Shown in pieces: positions 6,694 through 62,314 of a DNA stretch of 64,000 nt. Source of the stretch: Blastococcus xanthinilyticus (GTDB lineage: Bacteria > Actinomycetota > Actinomycetes > Mycobacteriales > Geodermatophilaceae). The notes under the pieces are model-generated. The model saw nothing but the letters and a program-made list of their open reading frames with translations, ran no database searches and was not told the DNA's origin. Within the stretch, counting starts at the first letter, position 1; each line of letters starts with the position of its first letter. The position numbers were made by a program, and so were the translations under genes. The stretch lies in NCBI RefSeq assembly GCF_008124835.1, contig NZ_VNHW01000001.1, forward strand, positions 534,563-598,562, in the 5' to 3' direction.

Positions 6694-7682
6694 CCGTCAG
6701 CACCCGGGACCTCGATCTCATCTGGAACGCCGCAGCCGGTCGCCCAGCGGTCACCAGCTTCCGCACGGCTCCCGTCGGAGTCGAGACGCCGCAGGGGCCG
6801 GTCCAGGCGGGCCTCGACGCCCAGGGGCACCGACACCTGCTCGTGCCCCTTGCGGCGAGGCACACGCTGCAGGAGGTCCTCGACGGTGACGCCGTCGTCC
6901 TCCGACGGCGAGCTCTGGAGGACGAGAACAGGTATCAGCCCTACGCCTCCCTGGAGCTCGTCGACGAGGGACTCGGGGACCTCTTCAAGGCGCTGTGCGT
7001 GGAAGTGGTCGAACGCATCGCCGCGACCCCCGACCGGGCCGTCGCTGCACTTCGCGAGGTGCTGAAGGAGTGGCGTGCGCTGCTTGCCGGCAACAGCCGT
7101 CCTCTCAGCGCGACGGCACTGGCCGGCCTCTTCGGGGAGCTTCATCTACTTCGGACCGCGCTCCGTCGTGACCCCGGCGCCGTCGCCTTCTGGACCGGTC
7201 CCAGTGGTTCCGCCCAGGACTTCCACCACGGCCGCCACGCCGTGGAGGTCAAGACGACGACTGCTCCCGAGGGCCGGTCGATCCGCGTCCACGGGGCGGA
7301 CCAGCTCGACGTGGAGGCACCGGGCCGACTCCTGCTTCGCTGGCTGAGAGTCCGATCCGATCAAGGCACGTCCGTCCCGGACCTGGTGACGGAGATCCTC
7401 GGCCTGACGGACGACAGCACCGCCTTTCGTCTGCTGCTGCACAAGGTCGGCTATCGCGAGGCGGATCGGCAGGTCTACGACCGCACGCGATTCGAGGTGC
7501 TCGAGGAGCGGGTGTACGAGGTGGGCCCCGGTTTCCCACGTATCACGCCGTCGGGGCTCACCGGCGACGCCGCGGCTCCGGGCCTCGGCCCCATCGACTA
7601 CACACTCGACCTGGACGCCCCCTCTGCGGACGCGAAGCGCGTAGATGTGGACCCTGCGGACTTTCTCTTGGCGGGCCCGTGA
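6690..7682 (+). CDS. PD-(D/E)XK motif endonuclease, DUF4420 family (defence operon gene 2)
   Basis: The protein is 330 aa. The nuclease core lies at residues 145-190: Glu150 in GLFGELHLL, Asp177 in GSAQDFHH and Glu186-Val-Lys188 in HAVEVKTTT, the E...D...ExK pattern of a PD-(D/E)XK restriction endonuclease fold. DUF4420 (PF14390) proteins are regular partners of Z1 helicases and MORC-type ATPases. This is therefore the likely DNA-cutting subunit, with helicase and ATPase supplying substrate presentation. The start GTG overlaps the helicase stop by four bases and the end overlaps the next gene the same way, so the subunits are probably made in fixed ratio. Confidence in the family is high; the DNA target cannot be told from sequence. 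Confidence 0.88.
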   Translation: MTVSTRDLDLIWNAAAGRPAVTSFRTAPVGVETPQGPVQAGLDAQGHRHLLVPLAARHTLQEVLDGDAVVLRRRALEDENRYQPYASLELVDEGLGDLFKALCVEVVERIAATPDRAVAALREVLKEWRALLAGNSRPLSATALAGLFGELHLLRTALRRDPGAVAFWTGPSGSAQDFHHGRHAVEVKTTTAPEGRSIRVHGADQLDVEAPGRLLLRWLRVRSDQGTSVPDLVTEILGLTDDSTAFRLLLHKVGYREADRQVYDRTRFEVLEERVYEVGPGFPRITPSGLTGDAAAPGLGPIDYTLDLDAPSADAKRVDVDPADFLLAGP

Positions 7683-53574: not shown

Positions 53575-54621
53575 TCAGCTCCCGAGCTGCAGCACCGGCG
53601 CGGTCACCGACCGGGAGCCACCCATCCACGTCGGCAGCAGCAGCATCTTCACGCCCGCTCCCCCGGTCACGACCACGTGCACGTCCGCCGCCGACGCGGC
53701 CACCCGCAGCCCGGGCGCCGCGTACGCCGGCACCCCGGCCCGGAAGGCCAGCGACGACGACGCCACCTCCAGCAACGCGCTGGCCTGCTCGAACAGGAAC
53801 GCAGCGATCCGCTCGTGGCCCCAGCCGTGCATCGCCAGCAGCTCCGCCGGCTCCGGCGGAAGCAGCAGGAACTGCTCACCGAGCGCGCCGCGCGCGGGAT
53901 CACCCATCGCCAGCACCACCCCGGCCATCGCCGCCGCGGCCGGGCCCAGCACCGACGGCGGCTCCCGGTAGCCCTCCCCCGGCAGCACCTCCACGGTGGC
54001 TCCCGCCCCGAGCACCGTCACCGCGTCGACGTCCACCCCCAGCCCCCGGCGCTGCGCCAGCGACGGCAGCGGGCGCGAGTGCTCCGCCGTGCAGCAGGTG
54101 TACTTCGCCGGCTGGCCGATCGTCGCCATGTCGGTGAGCCCCGTGGTCGCGCCGCCGATCCCGGCCAGCGCCATCGACACCGCCCGCCCGATGCAGGCGT
54201 TCGCCCGGTTCCCCGTGCCGAGCCCGCCCGCGCCCGCCGTCATGCCCAGCCGGCGCGCGACCGGCCCGTGCACCAGCACCGCCACCGCCGGCGCACCGGT
54301 CGTCGTCGAGAGCCCCAGCAGGTTGACCGAGTCGTCCAGCGCCGCCCGGCACGCCGCCACCACCACCGGCAGCTCCGCGGGCACGCACCCGGCCAGCACC
54401 GCGTACCAGCCCACCGCCCGCACGGTGAGTGCCCCGAACAGCGGCGGCACCTGCCCCAGCTCCACGTCCGGCGCCGCCACCCCGGCCAGCATCGCCTCGA
54501 GCCGGCCGGGCGTCGGCGGCACCACCGGCAGCCCGTCCCCGTGCCCGGCCGCCAGCAGCTCGCCCAGCACCGCTGCCGGGTCGGCGTCGTCGGGGACGAG
54601 CGGCAGCTCTGCCGCGGTCAC
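53575..54621 (-). CDS. UGSC-associated protein B (paralogue of the next gene)
   Basis: The protein is 348 aa. It shares a backbone with the gene at 54618: GDGLPVVPPTPGRLEAML, ALTVRAVGWYAVLAGC, TGNRANACIGRAVSMAL and a C-terminal HVVVTGGAGVKMLLLPTW. The shared DGLP(T/V)VPPTP motif and (R)ANACIGRAV helix point to one fold, but I know no function. It is the last gene of the operon, coupled by GTGA (GTG 54621). The constant company of a UGSC selenoprotein suggests that both proteins are partners or substrates of its redox centre; this is inference. Confidence 0.72.
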   Translation of the reverse strand: MTAAELPLVPDDADPAAVLGELLAAGHGDGLPVVPPTPGRLEAMLAGVAAPDVELGQVPPLFGALTVRAVGWYAVLAGCVPAELPVVVAACRAALDDSVNLLGLSTTTGAPAVAVLVHGPVARRLGMTAGAGGLGTGNRANACIGRAVSMALAGIGGATTGLTDMATIGQPAKYTCCTAEHSRPLPSLAQRRGLGVDVDAVTVLGAGATVEVLPGEGYREPPSVLGPAAAAMAGVVLAMGDPARGALGEQFLLLPPEPAELLAMHGWGHERIAAFLFEQASALLEVASSSLAFRAGVPAYAAPGLRVAASAADVHVVVTGGAGVKMLLLPTWMGGSRSVTAPVLQLGS

Positions 54622-55646
54622 CGGCCGACCGGCACCGCGCGCGACACCGCCGCCGTCGCCCCGAACGACGGGATCCACGCCGAGTGCTTCCCCGCTCCGC
54701 CGGCCACGAGCACGTGCAGCATCTCCGACCCGGTGCTCACCGTGTACTGGTCCCCGTCGGGCTTCACGCCCCAGTCCTCGAACTGCCGGCGGTTCTCCTC
54801 GGAGAACTGCGCCACCGGGATCCGCGCCCGCTCCCACAGCCAGTCGCGGATCGCCTCGACCGTCCACCCGTCGCGGTGCAGCGTCGCCGCGTGCTCCGGC
54901 CCCAGCACGAGGAAGTGCGGGCCCTTCACGTACACGTTGTTCGACCCGGCGGCGGTCATCGTCCCGGCGATGGTCATGAGCAGGCCGAGCCCCGTCGTCG
55001 ACCCGTGGTCGTTGATGTTGTGCGGCCCCTCGCACGCCGCCACCGTCACCGCCGACTCCCCCGGCGCGAACCCGCGGCGCACCGAGAACGGCTCGAACGG
55101 GCTCTCCTCCTCGTTCTCCCCGAAGCACCACGAGTACTTCGCCGGCGTCCCCTGGGTCGACCGGTCCATCGAACCCGGCCGGGCGCCACCGATGTGCGTG
55201 GTGACCAGCTGCACCGCCCGGCCGATGACGGCGTTGGCCCGCGTCCCCTGCCCGAAGCAGTTGCCCCCGGAGTTCAGCCCGACGGCCGCCCGCACCGGTC
55301 CACCGACGACCACCAGCGGCGCGCACGGGTGCGTCGTCGCCAGCACGCCGTGCAGGTTGTACTCCGGCGCGAGCAGCGCCCGCACCGCCGCCAGCACCAC
55401 CGGCAGGTCGCCCGGCCGGCACCCGGCCATCACCGCGTTCGCCGCGAAGCTCTCCGGGGTCGGCACCAGCCCCGAAGGCGGCACCGGCCCCAGCTCCAGG
55501 TCGATCCCCTCGAGCGCCGCCAGCGCCGCCGCCACCCGCGCCGGCGTGGGCGGCACCGTCGGCAGCCCGTCGCCCCAGCCACGCTCCCAGGCCAGCTCGT
55601 GCCAGTTCTCCTCGGTGACGCCCGGGAGCTCGATCACCTCGCTCAT
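54618..55646 (-). CDS. UGSC-associated protein A
   Basis: The protein is 342 aa. The N-terminus WERGWGDGLPTVPPTPARV and the segments CFGQGTRANAVIGRAVQL, GTPAKYSWCFGENEEESPF and HVLVAGGAGKHSAWIPS define the family shared with the gene at 53575. Several Cys are conserved between the two (one in the GTRANA region), which may take part in thiol/selenol chemistry. The ATG at 55646 overlaps the stop of the thioredoxin-reductase-UGSC gene as ATGA. That coupling only makes sense if ribosomes read through the TAG of that gene. The function is unknown. Confidence 0.75.
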   Translation of the reverse strand: MSEVIELPGVTEENWHELAWERGWGDGLPTVPPTPARVAAALAALEGIDLELGPVPPSGLVPTPESFAANAVMAGCRPGDLPVVLAAVRALLAPEYNLHGVLATTHPCAPLVVVGGPVRAAVGLNSGGNCFGQGTRANAVIGRAVQLVTTHIGGARPGSMDRSTQGTPAKYSWCFGENEEESPFEPFSVRRGFAPGESAVTVAACEGPHNINDHGSTTGLGLLMTIAGTMTAAGSNNVYVKGPHFLVLGPEHAATLHRDGWTVEAIRDWLWERARIPVAQFSEENRRQFEDWGVKPDGDQYTVSTGSEMLHVLVAGGAGKHSAWIPSFGATAAVSRAVPVGR

Positions 55647-57091
55647 GCGCTCCCCCGCGCCTCGTCGGCCAGCGGCAGCAGCGCACCGGCCGCGGCCTCG
55701 ATCCGCTCCGCCAGCTCCGCCTCGTTCAGCCCGCCGACCGGATGCGGCACGACGACGACCCGCGGCGTCACCCGCCGGGCCTTCGCCTGCGCCTCCACCA
55801 GGGGCAGGAAGGTCGAGGTCACCAGCAGCGGTGCCACGACGCCACGCTTCTCCAGTTCCACCGAGTCGTGGAGACTCCACGACGAGCACGAGCCCTAATC
55901 ACCGACCGCCACCAGCACCATCTTGTAGCGCTGCGAGAGCCAGTCGATGACGTCCTTGTCGGCCGCCGCCGACGCGTTCGGCTTGCTGGCGAACCCGATC
56001 TCCGGCAGCTCCCAGTGCGCCTGCAACCGCTCCCCCACCCCGCGCAGCAGCTCGGTGGCGTTGGGCTTGGAGTTGGAGAACAGCGCGACCTCGGTCCACT
56101 CCGCCGTCCCCCCGGACAGGATCTCGGCCGCGGAGCCGGCCGGCTGCACACCGAACGTCGGGTCGACGATCCGCAGTCCGCGGCCGGCCGCCGGACGCAG
56201 CGCCGCCACCGCCGCCGCACCGGCGGCCGCCCCGTCGGCCTCCGCCGACGGCACCGAGTCGGGAGCGCCGGAGCGCGCGTCGCCCGCCACGAACACCGTC
56301 GGGACGGCGGTGCGCACGCCGTCGTCGGTGCGCACCCGGCCCGACTCGTCCGTCGCCACCCCGTCGACCAGCGCGCCCGGCCCCCGCCGCCCGACATAGG
56401 GGAACAGCCCGTCGACGGCCAGCTCCCGCTCCCCTCCCGACGTCGCGACGACGACGCCGGAGAGCACCCCCTCGCCGCGCAGCGCCGTCACCGTCGCACC
56501 GGTCAGCACCTCGATCCGCCCGGAAGCCGCCAGCCGCGCGGCCCGCTCAGCCGACCAGCCCGGCCGCCCCGGCACCAGCACCGTCACCGCGGCGGCCACC
56601 TCGGCCAGCTCCAGCGCCTCCTCGGCGGTCCAGTCGTCGTCGCCGACGACCGCCACCGCCCGCCCGCGGAACAGCGGCCCGTCGCAGCCGGCGCAGGTGG
56701 AGATCCCCCGGCCGACCAGCAGCTCCTCGCCGGGCAGCCCCAGCCGCCCGGCGCTCAGCCCGGTCGCCACCACCACGGCACCGGCGCCGACCTCCCCCTC
56801 GGAGGTCTCCAGCCGCGGTGAGGCCCCGGCGTGCACCCGGGTGACCTCGGCGAACGACATCGTCACCCCGGCCGCCTCGGCCGCGGCCACCAGCCGGCCC
56901 AGCAGCTCGGCCGACGGCGTGACCTCCCCCGGACCCGGCACGTCGTGCAGCGCGGTCAGGTTGACCAGCTGCCCGCCCGGCGCCATCCGGTCGTAGGCCA
57001 CCACCCGCAGCCCGGCCTGCGCCGCCACCCGCGCCGCGGTCAGCCCCGCCACACCGGCGCCGACGACGGCCACGTCCCAGTCGCTGCTCAT
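55643..57091 (-). CDS. Thioredoxin reductase-like/UGSC selenoprotein with in-frame UAG as selenocysteine codon
   Basis: Read through the TAG at 55895-55897, the gene encodes 482 aa with residue 399 at the TAG. Residues 1-300 form a thioredoxin-reductase-like flavoprotein (VVGAGVAGLTAARVAA, STCAGCDGPLFRG with Cys133 and Cys136, VFVAGDARSG). Residues 305-482 form a UGSC domain: FSNSKPNATELLRG, then YKMVLVAVGD-TAG-GSCSSWSLHDSVELEKRG, then VVVVPHPVGGL. The family has selenocysteine or Cys as the first residue of U-G-S-C, exactly where the TAG stands. Homology runs in frame on both sides, and both ends overlap neighbour genes by ATGA. UAG-encoded Sec is reported for Blastococcus and Geodermatophilus (Mukai et al. 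2016). Ordinary gene calling yields two pieces, 55895-57091 and 55643-55861. A nonsense mutation is the alternative. Confidence 0.85.
55865..55883 (-). promoter_or_regulatory. Candidate bacterial SECIS element for the UAG codon
   Basis: In the mRNA, GTCGTGGAGTCTCCACGAC is a perfect palindrome around a central T: an 8-bp stem with a GUC triloop, or 7 bp with AGUCU. It lies 11 nt after the TAG, the same distance as the minimal stem from the UGA in E. coli fdhF as I recall it, and the apex resembles the AGGUCU loop read by SelB. It is inside the coding region (codons SWSLHDS), where bacterial SECIS elements must be. Confidence 0.75.
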
Positions 57092-58182
57092 GTCTCTCCC
57101 AGTCCCGTCGAGATCCGCGGCCACAGCCGGTCGGGGCCGTCGGCGGCCAGCCGCCGGCCGAGCTGCCGGTTCCAGTACCGCTCGCTGCCGAACTCGTCCC
57201 GCCACGACCACAGCCGACGGGTGAGCTGGCCCAGCTCGTACTCCTTCGTCATGCCGATCGCGCCGTGCGCCTGGTGCGACGCCCGGGCGGCGACGGTCGC
57301 CGCCTCGCCGGTCACCGCCTTGGCCGCCGCGACGTCGAAGAACCCGGGCTCCGGCCGCGCGTTGCCCGCGGCCACCTGCACGGCGAGGCCTGCCAGCTGG
57401 GCCTCCTCGGCGATGGTCACCAGGTGCGCCTGCACCGCCTGGAAGCGGGCGATCGGCCGGCCGAACTGCTCCCGCTCCCCGGTGTAGCGCACGGTCAGCT
57501 CGGCCACCCGGGCCAGCGCGCCCGAGATCAGCGCCGCCCGGCCGAGCGCGCCGCGCAGCCGCAGCGCCAGGTCGTCCACGCCCGCCGGTGCCGGCGCGAC
57601 GGTGCCGGCGGCCAGCGGCACGTCGTCCCAGGCGAGGTCGTCCCGCGGCTCCGCGGCGAGGTTGCGGCCGGGAGTCACCCGGGCCGCGGCGGTCGGCGCC
57701 GAGACGACGTAGGACGTCCCGCCGCCGGTGGCCAGCAGCGCCACCCGGGTGCTGCGGCCGCCCCACGGCACCCGCGTCAGCCGCCCGGTCAGCCGCCACG
57801 CCCCGGGGCCGCCGGAGAGCGCCGCCACGTCGCCGGGCCGACCGGCCGGCACCGTCAGCGGGCCGTCCGGGAGCTCCAGGCCGGCCGACGCCAGCAGCCA
57901 CCCGCCGGTCAGCCCCGCCTCGGCGAGCGGCACCGGCGCGGCGAACCGGCCGGCCACGGCGAGCAGGGCGCAGGCGTCGGCGACGTCGCCACCCGAGCCG
58001 CCGGCCGCCTCGGGCACCGAGACGTACGGGAAGCCCGAGGCCTCCAGCGCGCCCCACAGCCGGTCGCTCCAGCCGGTCGCCTCGGCGGCGACGACGTCCT
58101 CGGGGGTGCACAGGTCGCGCAGGATCCCGGTGGCGACCTCGGTGAGCATGGCGCGGTCGGTGCCGGCGTCGGTGGCGCTCAC
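57088..58182 (-). CDS. Acyl-CoA dehydrogenase-like protein (second subunit)
   Basis: The protein is 364 aa. It has the acyl-CoA dehydrogenase fold (ASGFPYVSVPEAAGGSGGD near the N-terminus, ALISGALARVAELTVRYTGEREQFGRPIARFQAVQAHL, AHGAIGMTKEYELGQLTRRLW), with GEREQFGxPI as the family signature. The FAD/substrate loop in the middle is degenerate (GGTSYVVSAPTAA) as in the partner subunits of heteromeric actinobacterial FadE pairs that oxidise steroid or bulky acyl-CoAs. GTG 58182 overlaps the previous gene's stop and the end overlaps the selenoprotein ATG (ATGA), so all three are coupled. Confidence 0.88.
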   Translation of the reverse strand: MSATDAGTDRAMLTEVATGILRDLCTPEDVVAAEATGWSDRLWGALEASGFPYVSVPEAAGGSGGDVADACALLAVAGRFAAPVPLAEAGLTGGWLLASAGLELPDGPLTVPAGRPGDVAALSGGPGAWRLTGRLTRVPWGGRSTRVALLATGGGTSYVVSAPTAAARVTPGRNLAAEPRDDLAWDDVPLAAGTVAPAPAGVDDLALRLRGALGRAALISGALARVAELTVRYTGEREQFGRPIARFQAVQAHLVTIAEEAQLAGLAVQVAAGNARPEPGFFDVAAAKAVTGEAATVAARASHQAHGAIGMTKEYELGQLTRRLWSWRDEFGSERYWNRQLGRRLAADGPDRLWPRISTGLGET

Positions 58183-59318
58183 GAGCCCAGTCCCTTCGCG
58201 GCCACGGACCGCAGGATCTCCGTCGTCCCGCCCTGCAGCGTGACCTTGGGCGAGGTCAGCACCGCCTCGGCGAGCAGTCGCTGGAACAGCGTGCCGGTGC
58301 CCTGGTCCAGTTCGGTCTCGGCGGCGACCCGCAGCGCCTCGACGAGGTCCTGCTCGAACCGGGTGCCGACCTCCTTGACCAGCGCTGCCTCGACCGCCGG
58401 CGCCTGCCCGGCGTCCAGGGCGCGGGCCACCGACAGCGACATCTGCCGGATCGCCCAGAACCGCGCGGCGAACCGGCCGATCACGGCGGCCGCGTCGTCG
58501 CGCACCGCCGGGCCGGCGTGCTCGCGGACGAACTCGCGCAGCACCGGGAACGTCGACAGCCAGCGGTCGGGGCCGCTGCGCTCGTAGGCCAGCTCGCTGG
58601 TCACCTGCTGCCAGCCCGAGCCGATCTCGCCGAGCACCATGTCGTCGGGCACGAAGACGTCCTCCAGCGCCACCTCGTTGAAGTGGTGCGAGCCGTCCAG
58701 GAACGGGATCGGCGAGACGGTGACGCCCTCGGCGTGCAGGTCGACGATCAGCTGGGAGAGCCCGGCGTGCTTGCGCCCCTCCTCCATCGGGGAGGTGCGG
58801 CAGAGGACGGCGAACCAGTGGTTGCGGTGCGCCTCGCTGGTCCACACCTTGGTGCCGGTGACCGTCCAGCCGCCGTCGACCTTCGTCGCCCGGGTGCGCA
58901 CCGACGCCAGGTCGGAGCCGGAGTCGGGCTCGCTCATGCCGAGGGAGAAGTAGACCTCCCCGGCCGCGATACCTGGCAGGAACCGGCGCCGCTGCTCTTC
59001 CGTGCCGTAGTGCAGCAGGGCCGGCCCGGTCTGCCGGTCGGCGACGAAGTGCGCGCCGATCGGTGCGCCGGCGGCCAGCAGCTCCTCGGCGACGACGAAC
59101 CGGTCCACCGCGCTGCGGCCGTGGCCGCCGTACTCGGGCGGGATCGCCATGCCCACCCAGCCGCGGGCGGCCAGCGTGCGGGAGAAGGCCGGGTCGTGCC
59201 GACCGGCGAACCCGAGCGCGGGCCGGTGGTCCGGCGGCAGCTGCTCGGCGAGGAAGTCGCGCACCTCGGCGCGCAACTTCTCCTCGGCGGGGCTGAGCGT
59301 GGTGGCGCTGAACTGCAT
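58179..59318 (-). CDS. Acyl-CoA dehydrogenase (first subunit)
   Basis: The protein is 379 aa. ACAD motifs: ARGWVGMAIPPEYGGHGRS, FSLGMSEPDSGSDLASVRT (FAD/substrate binding), WTVTGTKVWTSEAHRNHW and the C-terminal TLQGGTTEILRSVAAKGLG. The Gln-Gly-Gly-Thr region places it with FadE-type enzymes whose catalytic base may come from the partner subunit. ATG 59318 has a perfect GGAGG 7 bases before it. It is 65 bases from the enoyl-CoA hydratase and coupled to the second dehydrogenase by GTGA. The operon would take an acyl-CoA through oxidation and hydration. Confidence 0.92.
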   Translation of the reverse strand: MQFSATTLSPAEEKLRAEVRDFLAEQLPPDHRPALGFAGRHDPAFSRTLAARGWVGMAIPPEYGGHGRSAVDRFVVAEELLAAGAPIGAHFVADRQTGPALLHYGTEEQRRRFLPGIAAGEVYFSLGMSEPDSGSDLASVRTRATKVDGGWTVTGTKVWTSEAHRNHWFAVLCRTSPMEEGRKHAGLSQLIVDLHAEGVTVSPIPFLDGSHHFNEVALEDVFVPDDMVLGEIGSGWQQVTSELAYERSGPDRWLSTFPVLREFVREHAGPAVRDDAAAVIGRFAARFWAIRQMSLSVARALDAGQAPAVEAALVKEVGTRFEQDLVEALRVAAETELDQGTGTLFQRLLAEAVLTSPKVTLQGGTTEILRSVAAKGLGS

Positions 59319-59383: not shown

Positions 59384-60121
59384 TCAGGCGGTCTCGCGCC
59401 GCCGCTGGGACCACATCTGGGTGGCCCGCTCGAAGTGCAGCGCGGCCTCCCAGCCGATCCCGGGCGGACCGGCCTCCGTGCGGAAGGAGCGGGCGGCCTC
59501 GCGGGCCAGCTCCGGGTCCTTCGCGGCCCGGCCGGCCAGCTCGAACGCGAGCTCCTCGACCTGGTCGTCCGGCACGGCCTTCCACGCCATGCCGATCTCC
59601 GCGGCGCGCACGCCGTCGATCTCCTCGCCGAACAGCCCCATCGCGGCGGTGGCCTCGCGGCCCGCCGTCCGGGAGCTGATCGTGAAGTACCCGCCACCGG
59701 GGTGCAGGCCGATGCGCAGGAAGCCGGCCATCAGCCGCGCCGTCTCCGAGACGATCCGCAGGTCGGTGGAGAGCGCCAGGTTGATGCCGGCGCCCACCGC
59801 CGCGCCGCGGACGGCGGCGATCGTCGGCACCTGCAGCAGGCCGACCCGGCGGAACGCCTGGTAGACCGCGCCGAGCTCCTTGTAGGTCTTGTCCTCGGCC
59901 TGGTCGGCGCCGGCCGTCCAGCGCCGGCGGTCGGCGCCGGAGCAGAACGTGCCGCCCTTGCCCAGGACGACGGCGGCGCCCATGGCCGGGTCGCGGTCGA
60001 TGTCGTCGCACAGCTCCGACAGCTGCATCCCCATCTCGGGCGTCAGCCCGTTCTTCACCTCGACGTTGTCGACGGTGAGGACGGCGACGCCGCCCCTCTT
60101 CTCCAGCTGTACCTGTCCCAC
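59384..60121 (-). CDS. Enoyl-CoA hydratase/isomerase family protein
   Basis: The protein is 245 aa. Crotonase motifs: AVLTVDNVEVKNGLTPEM, the oxyanion-hole segment GKGGTFCSGADRRRW and AAVRGAAVGAGINLALSTDLRI. The first catalytic Glu of classical hydratases is not evident at GLHPGGGYFTISS, so an isomerase or lyase activity is possible. GTG 60121 is the start (GTGGGACAGGTACAG). The gene is second in the seven-gene minus-strand operon and supplies the step after the dehydrogenases. Confidence 0.9.
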   Translation of the reverse strand: MGQVQLEKRGGVAVLTVDNVEVKNGLTPEMGMQLSELCDDIDRDPAMGAAVVLGKGGTFCSGADRRRWTAGADQAEDKTYKELGAVYQAFRRVGLLQVPTIAAVRGAAVGAGINLALSTDLRIVSETARLMAGFLRIGLHPGGGYFTISSRTAGREATAAMGLFGEEIDGVRAAEIGMAWKAVPDDQVEELAFELAGRAAKDPELAREAARSFRTEAGPPGIGWEAALHFERATQMWSQRRRETA

Positions 60122-60169: not shown

Positions 60170-62314
60170 CTACTCACCGAGCGGGGCGCGGTGCCCGGTC
60201 GTGCGTACCAGTACGTCGACAGCGGTCGCCCCACCGCCCCTGGCCCCGACGATCAGGGGGTTGATCTCGAACTCGGCGAGCCGCTCGCCACCGGCGACGG
60301 CGGCCTGCGACAGCCGCACCACCGCGTCGACGGCAGCGGCGACGTCGGCCGGCGGGGCACCGCGGAAGCCGGCCAGCAGCGGCCAGGCGCGCAGGCCACG
60401 CAGCATCGACCAGGCGCGCTCCGGGGTCACCGGGGCCAGCCCGGAGGCGATGTCGCGGTACAGCTCGGTGGTGATCCCCCCGAGGCCGACGGTGATCACC
60501 GGTGGGAAGCCGTCCCGGCCGGCGGTCGCGGCCAGGATCAGTTCGGTGCCCGGCGGGATGAGTTCCTGCACCAGCACGCCCTCGACGTCCGGGACGTGGT
60601 GCCGGCGGGCCGCCTCGACCAGCTCGGTGAAGACCGCCGCGGCGTCGTCGGCCGGCACGCCGACCCGCACGCCGCCGACCTCGCTCTTGTGCGCCAGGTC
60701 GCCGGCGGCCAGCTTGAGCACCCCCGGCCCCGGCAGCGCCGCCACCGCGTCGCGGGCAGCCTCCGGTGTGGTGACCAGCGTCGACGACGGCTGCGCGATG
60801 CCGATCGCGCGCAGCAGCTCCGGCCCGTCGACGACATCGGCGGCCAGCAGCTCGCGGACCCGGCCGGCCGGCACCTCGGGCGGCGACGGCAGGGCCGGCG
60901 CGCTGCCCCGGTGGGCCGGTGGTGCCATGCGGGCGGCGGCCCGGGCGACGTCGCCGACCGAGCCGAACACCGGGATGCCCGCCTCGCGGAACACCCGCCG
61001 GCCCTCGACGGTCAGCTCCTGGCCGGCGATCCAGCCGACCAGCAGCGGCACCGGCAGCTTGGCCGCCGTCACCACCAGGTCCTCGGCCAGCCGGGCGCCC
61101 GCGTCGCCGACCACCATCGTCACGAAGACCGCGATCGCGTCCACCGACGGGTCGTCGGCGACGATCCGGCAGACGTCGCCGAACGCGTGCGCACCCCGGT
61201 TGAACAGCTGGGCGGTGACGTCGACAGGGTTGGCGAGCGCGCCGAACGCCGGGATCAGCGGGCGCAGCCGGTCCTGGGTGTCGGCCGACAGCTCGGGCAT
61301 CTCCAGGCCGAGGTCCTCGCACTGGTCGGCCGCCAGGCTGCCGGCGCCCCCGGAGGTGGTGACGACGGCGACCCGCCGCCCCTCCGACCGCCGGCCGGTG
61401 GACAGCAGCGCGGCCACCGACAGCAGCTCGTCGATGTCGTTCACCAGCACCACGCCGGAGTCCTCGGACGTCAGCACGAAGGCGACGTCGTCGCCCAGCA
61501 TGGAGCCGGTGTGGCTGGCCACCGCGCGGCGACCGGCGCTCGACCGCCCGGAGCGGAGCACCACCAGCTGGGTGCCGGTCTCGCGCGCCCGGCGGGTGAG
61601 CGCGGCGTAGGCCTGCCCGTCGTCGGTGGCCTCGACGTAGAGCATGAGCACCCGGACGGCCGGGTCGTCGAGCAGCTCCGAAGAGACGGCCACCAGGTCG
61701 AGGTCGGCCTGGTTGCCGGTGCTAGCCCAGAACGAGAGGCCCAGGCCCATGTCGGTGGCCAGGTCGAGCACCGAGCCACCGACGGCGCCGCTCTGGCCGA
61801 CGTAGGCGACTCCGCTGTCGGAGGTGAGCGGCCGGTCGGCCGCCGCGGTGAAGGTGGCCACCACCCCGGTCGGCGCGTAGAGGAAGCCCTGGCAGTTGGG
61901 GCCGAGCACCCGGACGCCGGTCTCCCGGGCCACCGCCGCCAGGCGGTGCTGCAGGGCCAGCCCCTCCGGGCCCACCTCGGCGAAGCCGGAGGCGTAGACG
62001 ACCGCGGCCGACGCCCCGACCGCGGCCGCCTGCCGGATCGCGTCCTCGACGCGGTCGGCGGCCACCAGCACGAGCACCAGGTCGACCGGCCCGGGGACGT
62101 CGGCCAGCGTCGGGTAGCAGCGCTGCCCGACCAGCTCCTCGTAGTTCGGGTTCACCGGGTAGATGCCACCGGTGTAGCCGTGCTCGACCAGGTAGCGCAG
62201 CGGCCGCGACATGAGGTTCTCGGCGCGGCCGGAGATGCCCAGCAGCGCGATCCCCCGCGGACGCAGCAGCGCGCCGAGCCCCTCGGGGCGGGCACCGGGC
62301 GGCCCGCTCACCAC
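60170..62314 (-). CDS. Acyl-CoA synthetase (ADP-forming) family protein
   Basis: The protein is 714 aa. Order: CoA-binding domain (ALLGISGRAENLMSRPL, GIYPVNPNYEELVG), succinyl-CoA-ligase-like alpha domain with the phospho-His in SHTGSMLGDD and GLLGPNCQG-like VRVLGPNCQGF, then a C-terminal ATP-grasp domain (VLKLAAGDLAHKSEVGGVRVGV, LVQELIPPGTELILA, EFEINPLIV). This is the one-chain acetate-CoA ligase (NDP-forming) architecture. It should feed an acid into the operon's acyl-CoA steps. The first codon is GTG 62314 with no clear ribosome binding site, so the transcript may be leaderless. Confidence 0.9.
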   Translation of the reverse strand: MVSGPPGARPEGLGALLRPRGIALLGISGRAENLMSRPLRYLVEHGYTGGIYPVNPNYEELVGQRCYPTLADVPGPVDLVLVLVAADRVEDAIRQAAAVGASAAVVYASGFAEVGPEGLALQHRLAAVARETGVRVLGPNCQGFLYAPTGVVATFTAAADRPLTSDSGVAYVGQSGAVGGSVLDLATDMGLGLSFWASTGNQADLDLVAVSSELLDDPAVRVLMLYVEATDDGQAYAALTRRARETGTQLVVLRSGRSSAGRRAVASHTGSMLGDDVAFVLTSEDSGVVLVNDIDELLSVAALLSTGRRSEGRRVAVVTTSGGAGSLAADQCEDLGLEMPELSADTQDRLRPLIPAFGALANPVDVTAQLFNRGAHAFGDVCRIVADDPSVDAIAVFVTMVVGDAGARLAEDLVVTAAKLPVPLLVGWIAGQELTVEGRRVFREAGIPVFGSVGDVARAAARMAPPAHRGSAPALPSPPEVPAGRVRELLAADVVDGPELLRAIGIAQPSSTLVTTPEAARDAVAALPGPGVLKLAAGDLAHKSEVGGVRVGVPADDAAAVFTELVEAARRHHVPDVEGVLVQELIPPGTELILAATAGRDGFPPVITVGLGGITTELYRDIASGLAPVTPERAWSMLRGLRAWPLLAGFRGAPPADVAAAVDAVVRLSQAAVAGGERLAEFEINPLIVGARGGGATAVDVLVRTTGHRAPLGE

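Follow-up and report, generated by a model that had tools for sequence, protein, structure and literature searches.

A Probable UAG-Encoded Selenocysteine in a Flavoprotein-UGSC Fusion of Blastococcus xanthinilyticus, Its UGA Counterparts and Its Partner Genes

The subject of this report is a gene in a 64,000-nucleotide stretch of the genome of Blastococcus xanthinilyticus (Geodermatophilaceae; contig NZ_VNHW01000001.1, positions 534,563 to 598,562), hereafter the window, whose own numbering is used below. On the minus strand (55643..57091) this gene encodes a thioredoxin reductase (TrxR)-like flavoprotein fused to a UGSC selenoprotein domain, 482 residues in all if an internal TAG is read as selenocysteine (Sec) at residue 399. 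Sequence comparisons make it very likely that this UAG does specify Sec. With less assurance, we consider it probable that the product works as a single chain whose selenol relays electrons between the flavin domain and the products of two adjacent genes, named here partners B and C. What the sequence itself offers toward this reading is the TAG and its conservation, a matching tRNA, the sel genes, a potential hairpin, the operon and TGA-containing counterparts in other bacteria.

The Fusion Gene and Its Domains

The minus-strand frame from 57091 to 55643 contains a single internal stop, the TAG at 55897-55895 (residue 399), after which it continues as GSCSSWSLHD and closes with a terminal TGA. 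The original prediction, which was made from the letters of this stretch without database searches, had described the same frame and stop, with ATGA overlaps at both outer junctions. Both overlaps are present on re-reading: one joins the stop of the upstream acyl-CoA dehydrogenase to the start of the fusion (57091-57088), and the other joins the stop of the fusion to the start of partner B (55646-55643). The joined residues had also been assigned to the UGSC family, and profile searches with TAG read as Cys bear this out. The Pfam UGSC model PF24696 matches residues 308-470 (55682..56170, minus strand) at 120.5 bits against a cut-off of 25, and the NCBIfam equivalog model NF041046 gives 109.6 bits against a cut-off of 125. 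We therefore file the protein as a UGSC-domain protein and not as an NF041046 equivalog.

The motif reads U399-G-S-C402, that is, the codon is TAG and the next residues are GSC, in keeping with the Sec or Cys followed by GSC of the family. In an alignment of the Sec site across 12 UGSC sequences, two have G-A-C instead of G-S-C. The downstream D, G, F and P residues are common to the family as well; the window copy differs from it by its position behind a flavin domain. This TrxR-like domain binding flavin adenine dinucleotide (FAD) occupies residues 1-295 (56207..57091, minus strand), has CAGC at residues 133-136 and, in the same Pfam scan, matches Pyr_redox_2 over residues 6-287 (113.2 bits). 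A predicted flexible linker of low confidence (residues 302-324, 56120..56188, minus strand; AlphaFold2 predicted local distance difference test score below 50) leads into the UGSC domain.

Conservation of the TAG and of the Tail in Geodermatophilaceae

A search of 112 Geodermatophilaceae genomes with the Pfam UGSC profile returned 95 matches in 54 genomes; 72 matches had one in-frame TAG, 23 had no stop, and none had TGA. Twenty matches, picked by score, were fetched, and further fusions may have been missed. Among the 20, 18 are fusions of the window type with TrxR in the same frame. The other two were left out of the fusion counts: L060 is a partial match without a stop, and L051 (genome G108, about position 6978, minus strand) has Cys (TGT) at the site and a long open frame that runs on for 464 codons past it, and represents a different UGSC architecture. 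The window and the 18 other genomes (L041-L059 without L051) make up the set of 19 copies used here.

All 19 copies have TAG at the identical codon, exactly 83 codons downstream of it, and then TGA; at the junction behind the tail every copy reads [A/G]TGA. Over 171 pairs of copies, the ratio of the proportions of nonsynonymous and synonymous differences (pN/pS) in the tail was 0.46 in frame and 1.30 and 1.68 in the two other frames. The 60 codons before the TAG gave 0.41, and shifted frames overall ranged from 1.23 to 1.68. Judging by these substitutions, the 83-codon tail is under protein-level selection. The TAG is not a matter of chance, because it stands at the same codon before an 83-codon tail in all copies and because pN/pS of this tail is low only in frame. 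On the low ratio and the fixed tail length, a decaying pseudogene was rejected.

The original prediction had named relatives with a sense codon and decay around the site as a sign against recoding. None such was found: the 18 other family copies keep the TAG and an intact tail, and the readable relatives from outside the family, 66 of 66, have TGA. It had further expected gene callers to report a pseudogene, which is not what the databases hold. Of 124 matches, 120 relatives were listed (P0002-P0121); most of these are about 386-414 residues long, as expected for proteins cut at the TAG, and the named ones are entered as thioredoxin reductase or as FAD/pyridine nucleotide oxidoreductase. One such entry, P0006, is the cut form from B. 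saxobsidens DD2, a strain in which the TrxR-UGSC fusion is very likely present.

Selenocysteine Machinery and the Reading of UAG

If UAG is to be read as Sec, does the genome have the means? The source assembly (G000; 4.6 Mb, 38 contigs) contains selA (413 bits), selB (287 bits) and selD (387 bits), all over the cut-off, and a single tRNA-Sec well above the cut-off (64.2 bits), full length and with a CUA anticodon; a weaker match above the cut-off of the same model is a tRNA-Ser (L002). The tRNA-Sec gene lies between selA and selD, and selB adjoins selA. Thus the whole set of selA, selB, selC and selD, which had been proposed as a check, is present, with an anticodon that matches the codon. 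Two further genes of this genome have TAG at the Sec site. The second UGSC gene (L009:7658-9585, contig C3 of G000; UGSC domain 144 bits) lies directly after a partner-family protein, and a formate dehydrogenase-like molybdopterin gene with the in-frame TAG in the context ENQARI-TAG-HSATV is found on the minus strand of contig C7 (L096, C7:181000-189000).

ARAGORN labels the CUA tRNA 'tRNA-Pyl', which would favor the insertion of another amino acid, by pyrrolysine decoding or by ordinary amber suppression. Pyrrolysine was rejected, since this is the very tRNA that matches the tRNA-Sec model over its full length and is situated between selA and selD. Moreover, sister genera have UCA versions of it, and the orthologues from outside the family use TGA, mostly with the same hairpin (see below). 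We regard the insertion of any amino acid other than Sec as extremely improbable.

The distribution of this tRNA in the family is broad. A tRNA-Sec was detected in 109 of the 112 genomes and in 96 of 96 of good quality, and the exact CUA anticodon arm in 101 of the 112. The 11 genomes without this arm include all nine of genera g5-g7 and two incomplete genomes of g9. The 31 tRNA-Sec loci that were read (the window's own genome, L001, and L061-L090) comprise 23 with CUA and 8 with UCA; seven of the latter belong to g5-g7 (7 of their 9 genomes), and one belongs to G058, where it is found beside a CUA copy. In G058 the two genes (L097, L098) are accompanied by a single selB match over the cut-off, and the contig of the UCA copy has frames that, by eye, resemble transposases, so that recent import or contamination is possible. 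UGSC is present in 53 of the 96 good-quality genomes, and tRNA-Sec in all of them. Since tRNA-Sec is more common than UGSC, other Sec genes likely maintain it.

UAG looks to have remained a normal stop elsewhere in these genomes. Release factor 1 (RF1) is encoded (476 bits), and TAG terminates 17 of 105 homologues of the operon genes in the 18 family fusion loci and 12 of 85 in the 13 Geodermatophilaceae loci of the partner B scan described below, whose genomes are partly shared with the former set. With UAG still an ordinary stop, Sec decoding would depend on the hairpin. The same observations, together with the cut forms in the databases, are what can be said for a true stop in vivo, which would leave a TrxR-like flavoprotein of 398 residues, ending halfway through the UGSC domain, and a tail that is untranslated or decaying. 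Against it stand the tail kept in all 19 copies with its in-frame pN/pS of 0.46, the exact coincidence of the TAG with the U of the UGSC motif, where outside orthologues have TGA, and the CUA tRNA-Sec with the sel genes. A true stop is accordingly very improbable. The claim of the original prediction that UAG is decoded as Sec gains support from the tRNA, the sel genes, the conserved TAG and the TGA orthologues.

A SECIS-Like Hairpin After the Codon

A potential hairpin resembling a selenocysteine insertion sequence (SECIS) starts 11 nucleotides after the TAG (55865..55883, minus strand), with a stem of 7 bp (GTCGTGG/CCACGAC) and the loop AGTCT. The second UGSC gene could form GTCGTGC-AGTGT-GCACGAC and the formate dehydrogenase-like gene GGTGCCC-GGTCT-GGGTGCC, both also 11 nucleotides after the TAG, and so the three UAG genes of the genome agree in spacing and stem length. 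All 7 pairs can form at 10 of 15 distinct TAG sites and at 11 of 28 distinct TGA sites, with 6 of 7 at 14 further TGA sites. The 37 Cys-coded sites reach a mean of 3.8 of 7 pairs and at best 6. Third codon positions are less variable in the first 14 codons past the TAG than later (1.29 vs 1.94 states). Common spacing and pairing with alternative stem sequences, and weaker pairing at Cys sites, are what a hairpin conserved as RNA should display.

The canonical bacterial hairpin after a Sec codon is the SECIS of the E. coli fdhF type. The elements found here are like it in their distance of 11 nucleotides from the codon and, in the formate dehydrogenase copy, in the loop GGTCT. They differ in following UAG, and the main UGSC loops are AGTCT, AGTTT or AGTGT.

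A Proposed Switch from UGA to UAG

The wider history of the site was traced through partner B. A scan of a genome collection gave at least 573 confirmed places, of which the best 80 were kept, a sample of the near subfamily; their hosts are actinomycetes and, for the most part, alphaproteobacteria. In 79 of these 80 loci UGSC is found close upstream of B, with a second copy of B between the two in L203, and in the remaining locus (L159) it is reduced to a remnant by the contig end, where the codon cannot be read. The Sec codon is TAG in 13 of 13 Geodermatophilaceae loci and TGA in 66 of 66 other readable loci, and Cys occurs in none. The TGA loci outside the family mostly have a like hairpin. 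TrxR is fused to UGSC in the 13 Geodermatophilaceae loci, and in 54 of the 66 TGA loci it is a separate gene at most 400 nucleotides upstream. Long upstream frames in Actinomycetospora had suggested a fusion outside the family, but the frames differ and the genes were counted as separate, by a mechanical frame test in which sequencing errors were not weighed.

A tree built from 38 partner B proteins places all 8 TAG rows in a single group (support 100/100), whose fork joins rows of Pseudonocardiaceae (100/99; midpoint root). A single codon switch would suffice for this tree, with RF1 and TAG stops persisting. In a class-wide sample of 394 genomes, UGSC was present in 22: the source genome alone has TAG, G197 has TGA, and the others have no stop. 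The part of a review drawn on here mentions species in which UAG, UAA or even sense codons have been recoded to Sec (PMC10778597).

Two side observations concern other UGSC types. In G197 (L127) the second UGSC type occurs with TGA at the site (VVIEALAD-U-GSCTSCSVHDI); it adjoins a partner gene and is a possible outgroup for the codon switch of that type. Several Pseudonocardia and Actinomycetospora loci have a second, diverged UGSC-like TGA gene (GA-U-GSCMPAVMR; e.g., L158:4862-5281 and L160:4963-5448), and in these a second partner gene lies about 2.5 kb upstream.

Partners B and C and the Operon

The gene of partner B (54618..55646, minus strand) encodes 342 residues and that of partner C (53575..54621, minus strand) about 348; C scores on the profile of B. 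Neither matches any Pfam or NCBIfam model. Partner B has at least 5,877 relatives. Among 20 aligned members Cys 76, 108, 130 and 174 and a PHN.ND.H block are invariant, and among 86 members Cys108 and Cys130 still are, with Cys76 and Cys174 nearly so.

How constant is the link between UGSC and these proteins? A partner-family gene is present in 97 of 99 UGSC stretches, some of which overlap in place (the exceptions are L138 and L142); a script left the Sec-site codon unread in 10 of the 99, where the genome profile searches show no stop. At the second UGSC locus of the genome the partner has an N-terminal thioredoxin-like domain, a weak match of 21.3 bits below the cut-off of 27. These observations, together with the position of UGSC just upstream of B in the scan, argue against an alternative in which Sec is inserted but the chain is a stand-alone peroxide or thiol reductase and B and C are chance neighbors. 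In favor of that alternative, CxxC and UGSC could make a closed relay within one chain, and most selenoprotein families of an ocean survey are thiol-oxidoreductase-like, as far as the part of it used here goes (PMC2398784). We hold it to be unlikely. The original prediction took the TrxR-UGSC gene as the unit; the gene stands as described, but the unit of interest is larger. By gene linkage, it would comprise the TrxR-like flavoprotein, UGSC, partner B and partner C; outside the family TrxR is in most cases a gene of its own, located upstream.

Upstream on the same strand lie two acyl-CoA dehydrogenases (57088..58182 and 58179..59318), an enoyl-CoA hydratase/isomerase (59384..60121) and an ATP-grasp acyl-CoA ligase (60170..62314). 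The family loci have the ligase and hydratase genes, and most also have both dehydrogenases; neither dehydrogenase is present in L059 or its twin locus L149, and L041 has only a partial match to one of them. Parts of this gene set are present in Pseudonocardiaceae loci. The Pseudomonadota loci fetched gave no match to the operon acyl-CoA dehydrogenases and, of the rest, nothing beyond weak matches to the hydratase in L194 and L221 and a single FAH match in L206. One alphaproteobacterial locus has a branched-chain-type ABC transporter, an amidase and a dihydrodipicolinate synthase-like gene nearby. Taken across the loci, the neighbor genes appear to point to no single substrate.

The Flavin Domain and the Proposed Relay

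By structure and sequence, the flavin domain groups with low-molecular-weight thioredoxin reductases. The CxxC (as CAxC) and the FAD motif are kept in 39 of 39 TrxR rows that have the region. On TIGR01292, the model of this class, the domain scores 198.6 bits (200.2 in the genome search) against a cut-off of 343.45, and a separate TrxR elsewhere in the genome exceeds this cut-off (394.7 bits). GxGxxA and HRRxxxR are motifs typical of TrxR dependent on reduced nicotinamide adenine dinucleotide phosphate (NADPH), and the corresponding sites of the window protein read GDDDWTA and PGRPGWS. GGGxSA is seen in all 5 aligned PDB thioredoxin reductases and HRR in 4 of them, the exception being the one from Thermosipho; ferredoxin- or flavin-linked variants occur in this superfamily. 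The domain thus differs from the low-molecular-weight TrxR of TIGR01292 both in score and in these two motifs. The original prediction of a thioredoxin reductase with its own CxxC holds for the CAGC and the FAD motif and fails for the TIGR01292 cut-off and the NADPH motifs, so that, on these motifs, the name 'thioredoxin reductase' seems doubtful.

The relay that we consider probable would run as follows. UAG would be read as Sec by the CUA tRNA-Sec with SelA, SelB, SelD and the hairpin 11 nucleotides downstream. Electrons would pass from a donor to FAD and on to Cys133/Cys136, and from there, across the flexible linker, to a Sec399/Cys402 pair; the selenol would then act on a substrate held by B and C, where the chemistry on that substrate, most likely a reduction, would take place. 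From the data above we infer the Sec insertion, the redox pair fed by CAGC and the substrate chemistry of B and C. Conserved motifs speak for the first half of this relay, and gene linkage only for the second. Our best guess is a selenol-dependent reductase complex.

Several observations weigh against this relay. None of the 39 rows has HRRxxxR and only one of them, L173, keeps GxGxxA, in the family and in outside orthologues alike; NADPH is therefore doubtful as the donor, and the flow might even run in the other direction. Partners B and C gave no confident fold match, and TrxR is not adjacent upstream in 12 of the 66 TGA loci. As for the hairpin, 5 of the 15 TAG sites form just 5 of 7 pairs, 3 of the 28 TGA sites, all from the diverged paralogue, form 3-4 of 7, and the single-sequence fold is only mildly better than its shuffles (z -1.71; 13 of 200 shuffles equally stable).

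The NADPH motifs, being mostly missing, also fit a reverse flow, in which B and C oxidize a substrate and the flavin domain hands electrons on, e.g., to the operon's acyl-CoA dehydrogenase pathway, and the two dehydrogenases in most family loci agree with this. The Pseudomonadota loci fetched have no match to these dehydrogenases, and low-potential selenols are usually used for reduction. A reverse flow is in our opinion improbable.

Relation to Known Systems

Mukai and colleagues reportedly described UAG-encoded formate dehydrogenase and UGSC-motif selenoproteins in Geodermatophilaceae in 2016, and we take theirs as the earlier report. For the UGSC proteins of this family, UAG-encoded Sec is in print already, and the window gene may be among those reported. 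The sections of another account drawn on here state that Geodermatophilaceae have a tRNA-Sec with CUA, that formate dehydrogenase and UGSC-motif selenoproteins with it were reported earlier, and that B. saxobsidens DD2 has an AhpC selenoprotein (PMC5330540). Our case is the same in its CUA tRNA-Sec, UAG Sec sites, formate dehydrogenase and UGSC-motif proteins and host family; in those sections the TrxR fusion, the partners and the TGA orthologues are not mentioned (PMC5330540). A literature search that did not cover the original UAG-Sec report yielded no description that we recognized of the TrxR-UGSC fusion or of the partner family. UGSC was a major selenoprotein family of the ocean survey, where the portion used here has one fusion to an unknown domain (PMC2398784), and the functions of such families are largely uncharacterized, according to the part used here of a 2026 review (PMC13188914).

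The nearest parallel is one of logic only. In clostridial glycine and D-proline reductases a flavoprotein disulfide reductase feeds a small selenoprotein that serves partner subunits. The hosts here, in contrast, are actinomycetes and mostly alphaproteobacteria, and the likeness is one of description, not of profile comparison. In a general Pfam scan at E 0.001 there was no match to GrdB/PrdB (PF07355, the accession given for PrdB in the part of PMC2398784 used here). We suggest tentatively, at somewhat less than even odds, that the TrxR-like protein together with UGSC, B and C makes up a selenium-dependent redox system not described before, spread among Actinomycetota and Pseudomonadota and glycine-reductase-like outside the clostridia, and that in Geodermatophilaceae its first two parts were fused and its Sec codon and tRNA passed from UGA to UAG.

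The databases now carry the relatives of this protein cut at the selenium site. In the loci examined the near-constant link of UGSC to a partner family without a Pfam or NCBIfam model gives a handle on the possible function of UGSC. Orthologues with UGA or UAG at one site and a like hairpin, and a tRNA anticodon that varies within one family, make the path of the codon switch testable. Should the suggestion hold, nature would have left in this enzyme system a before-and-after record of codon reassignment.

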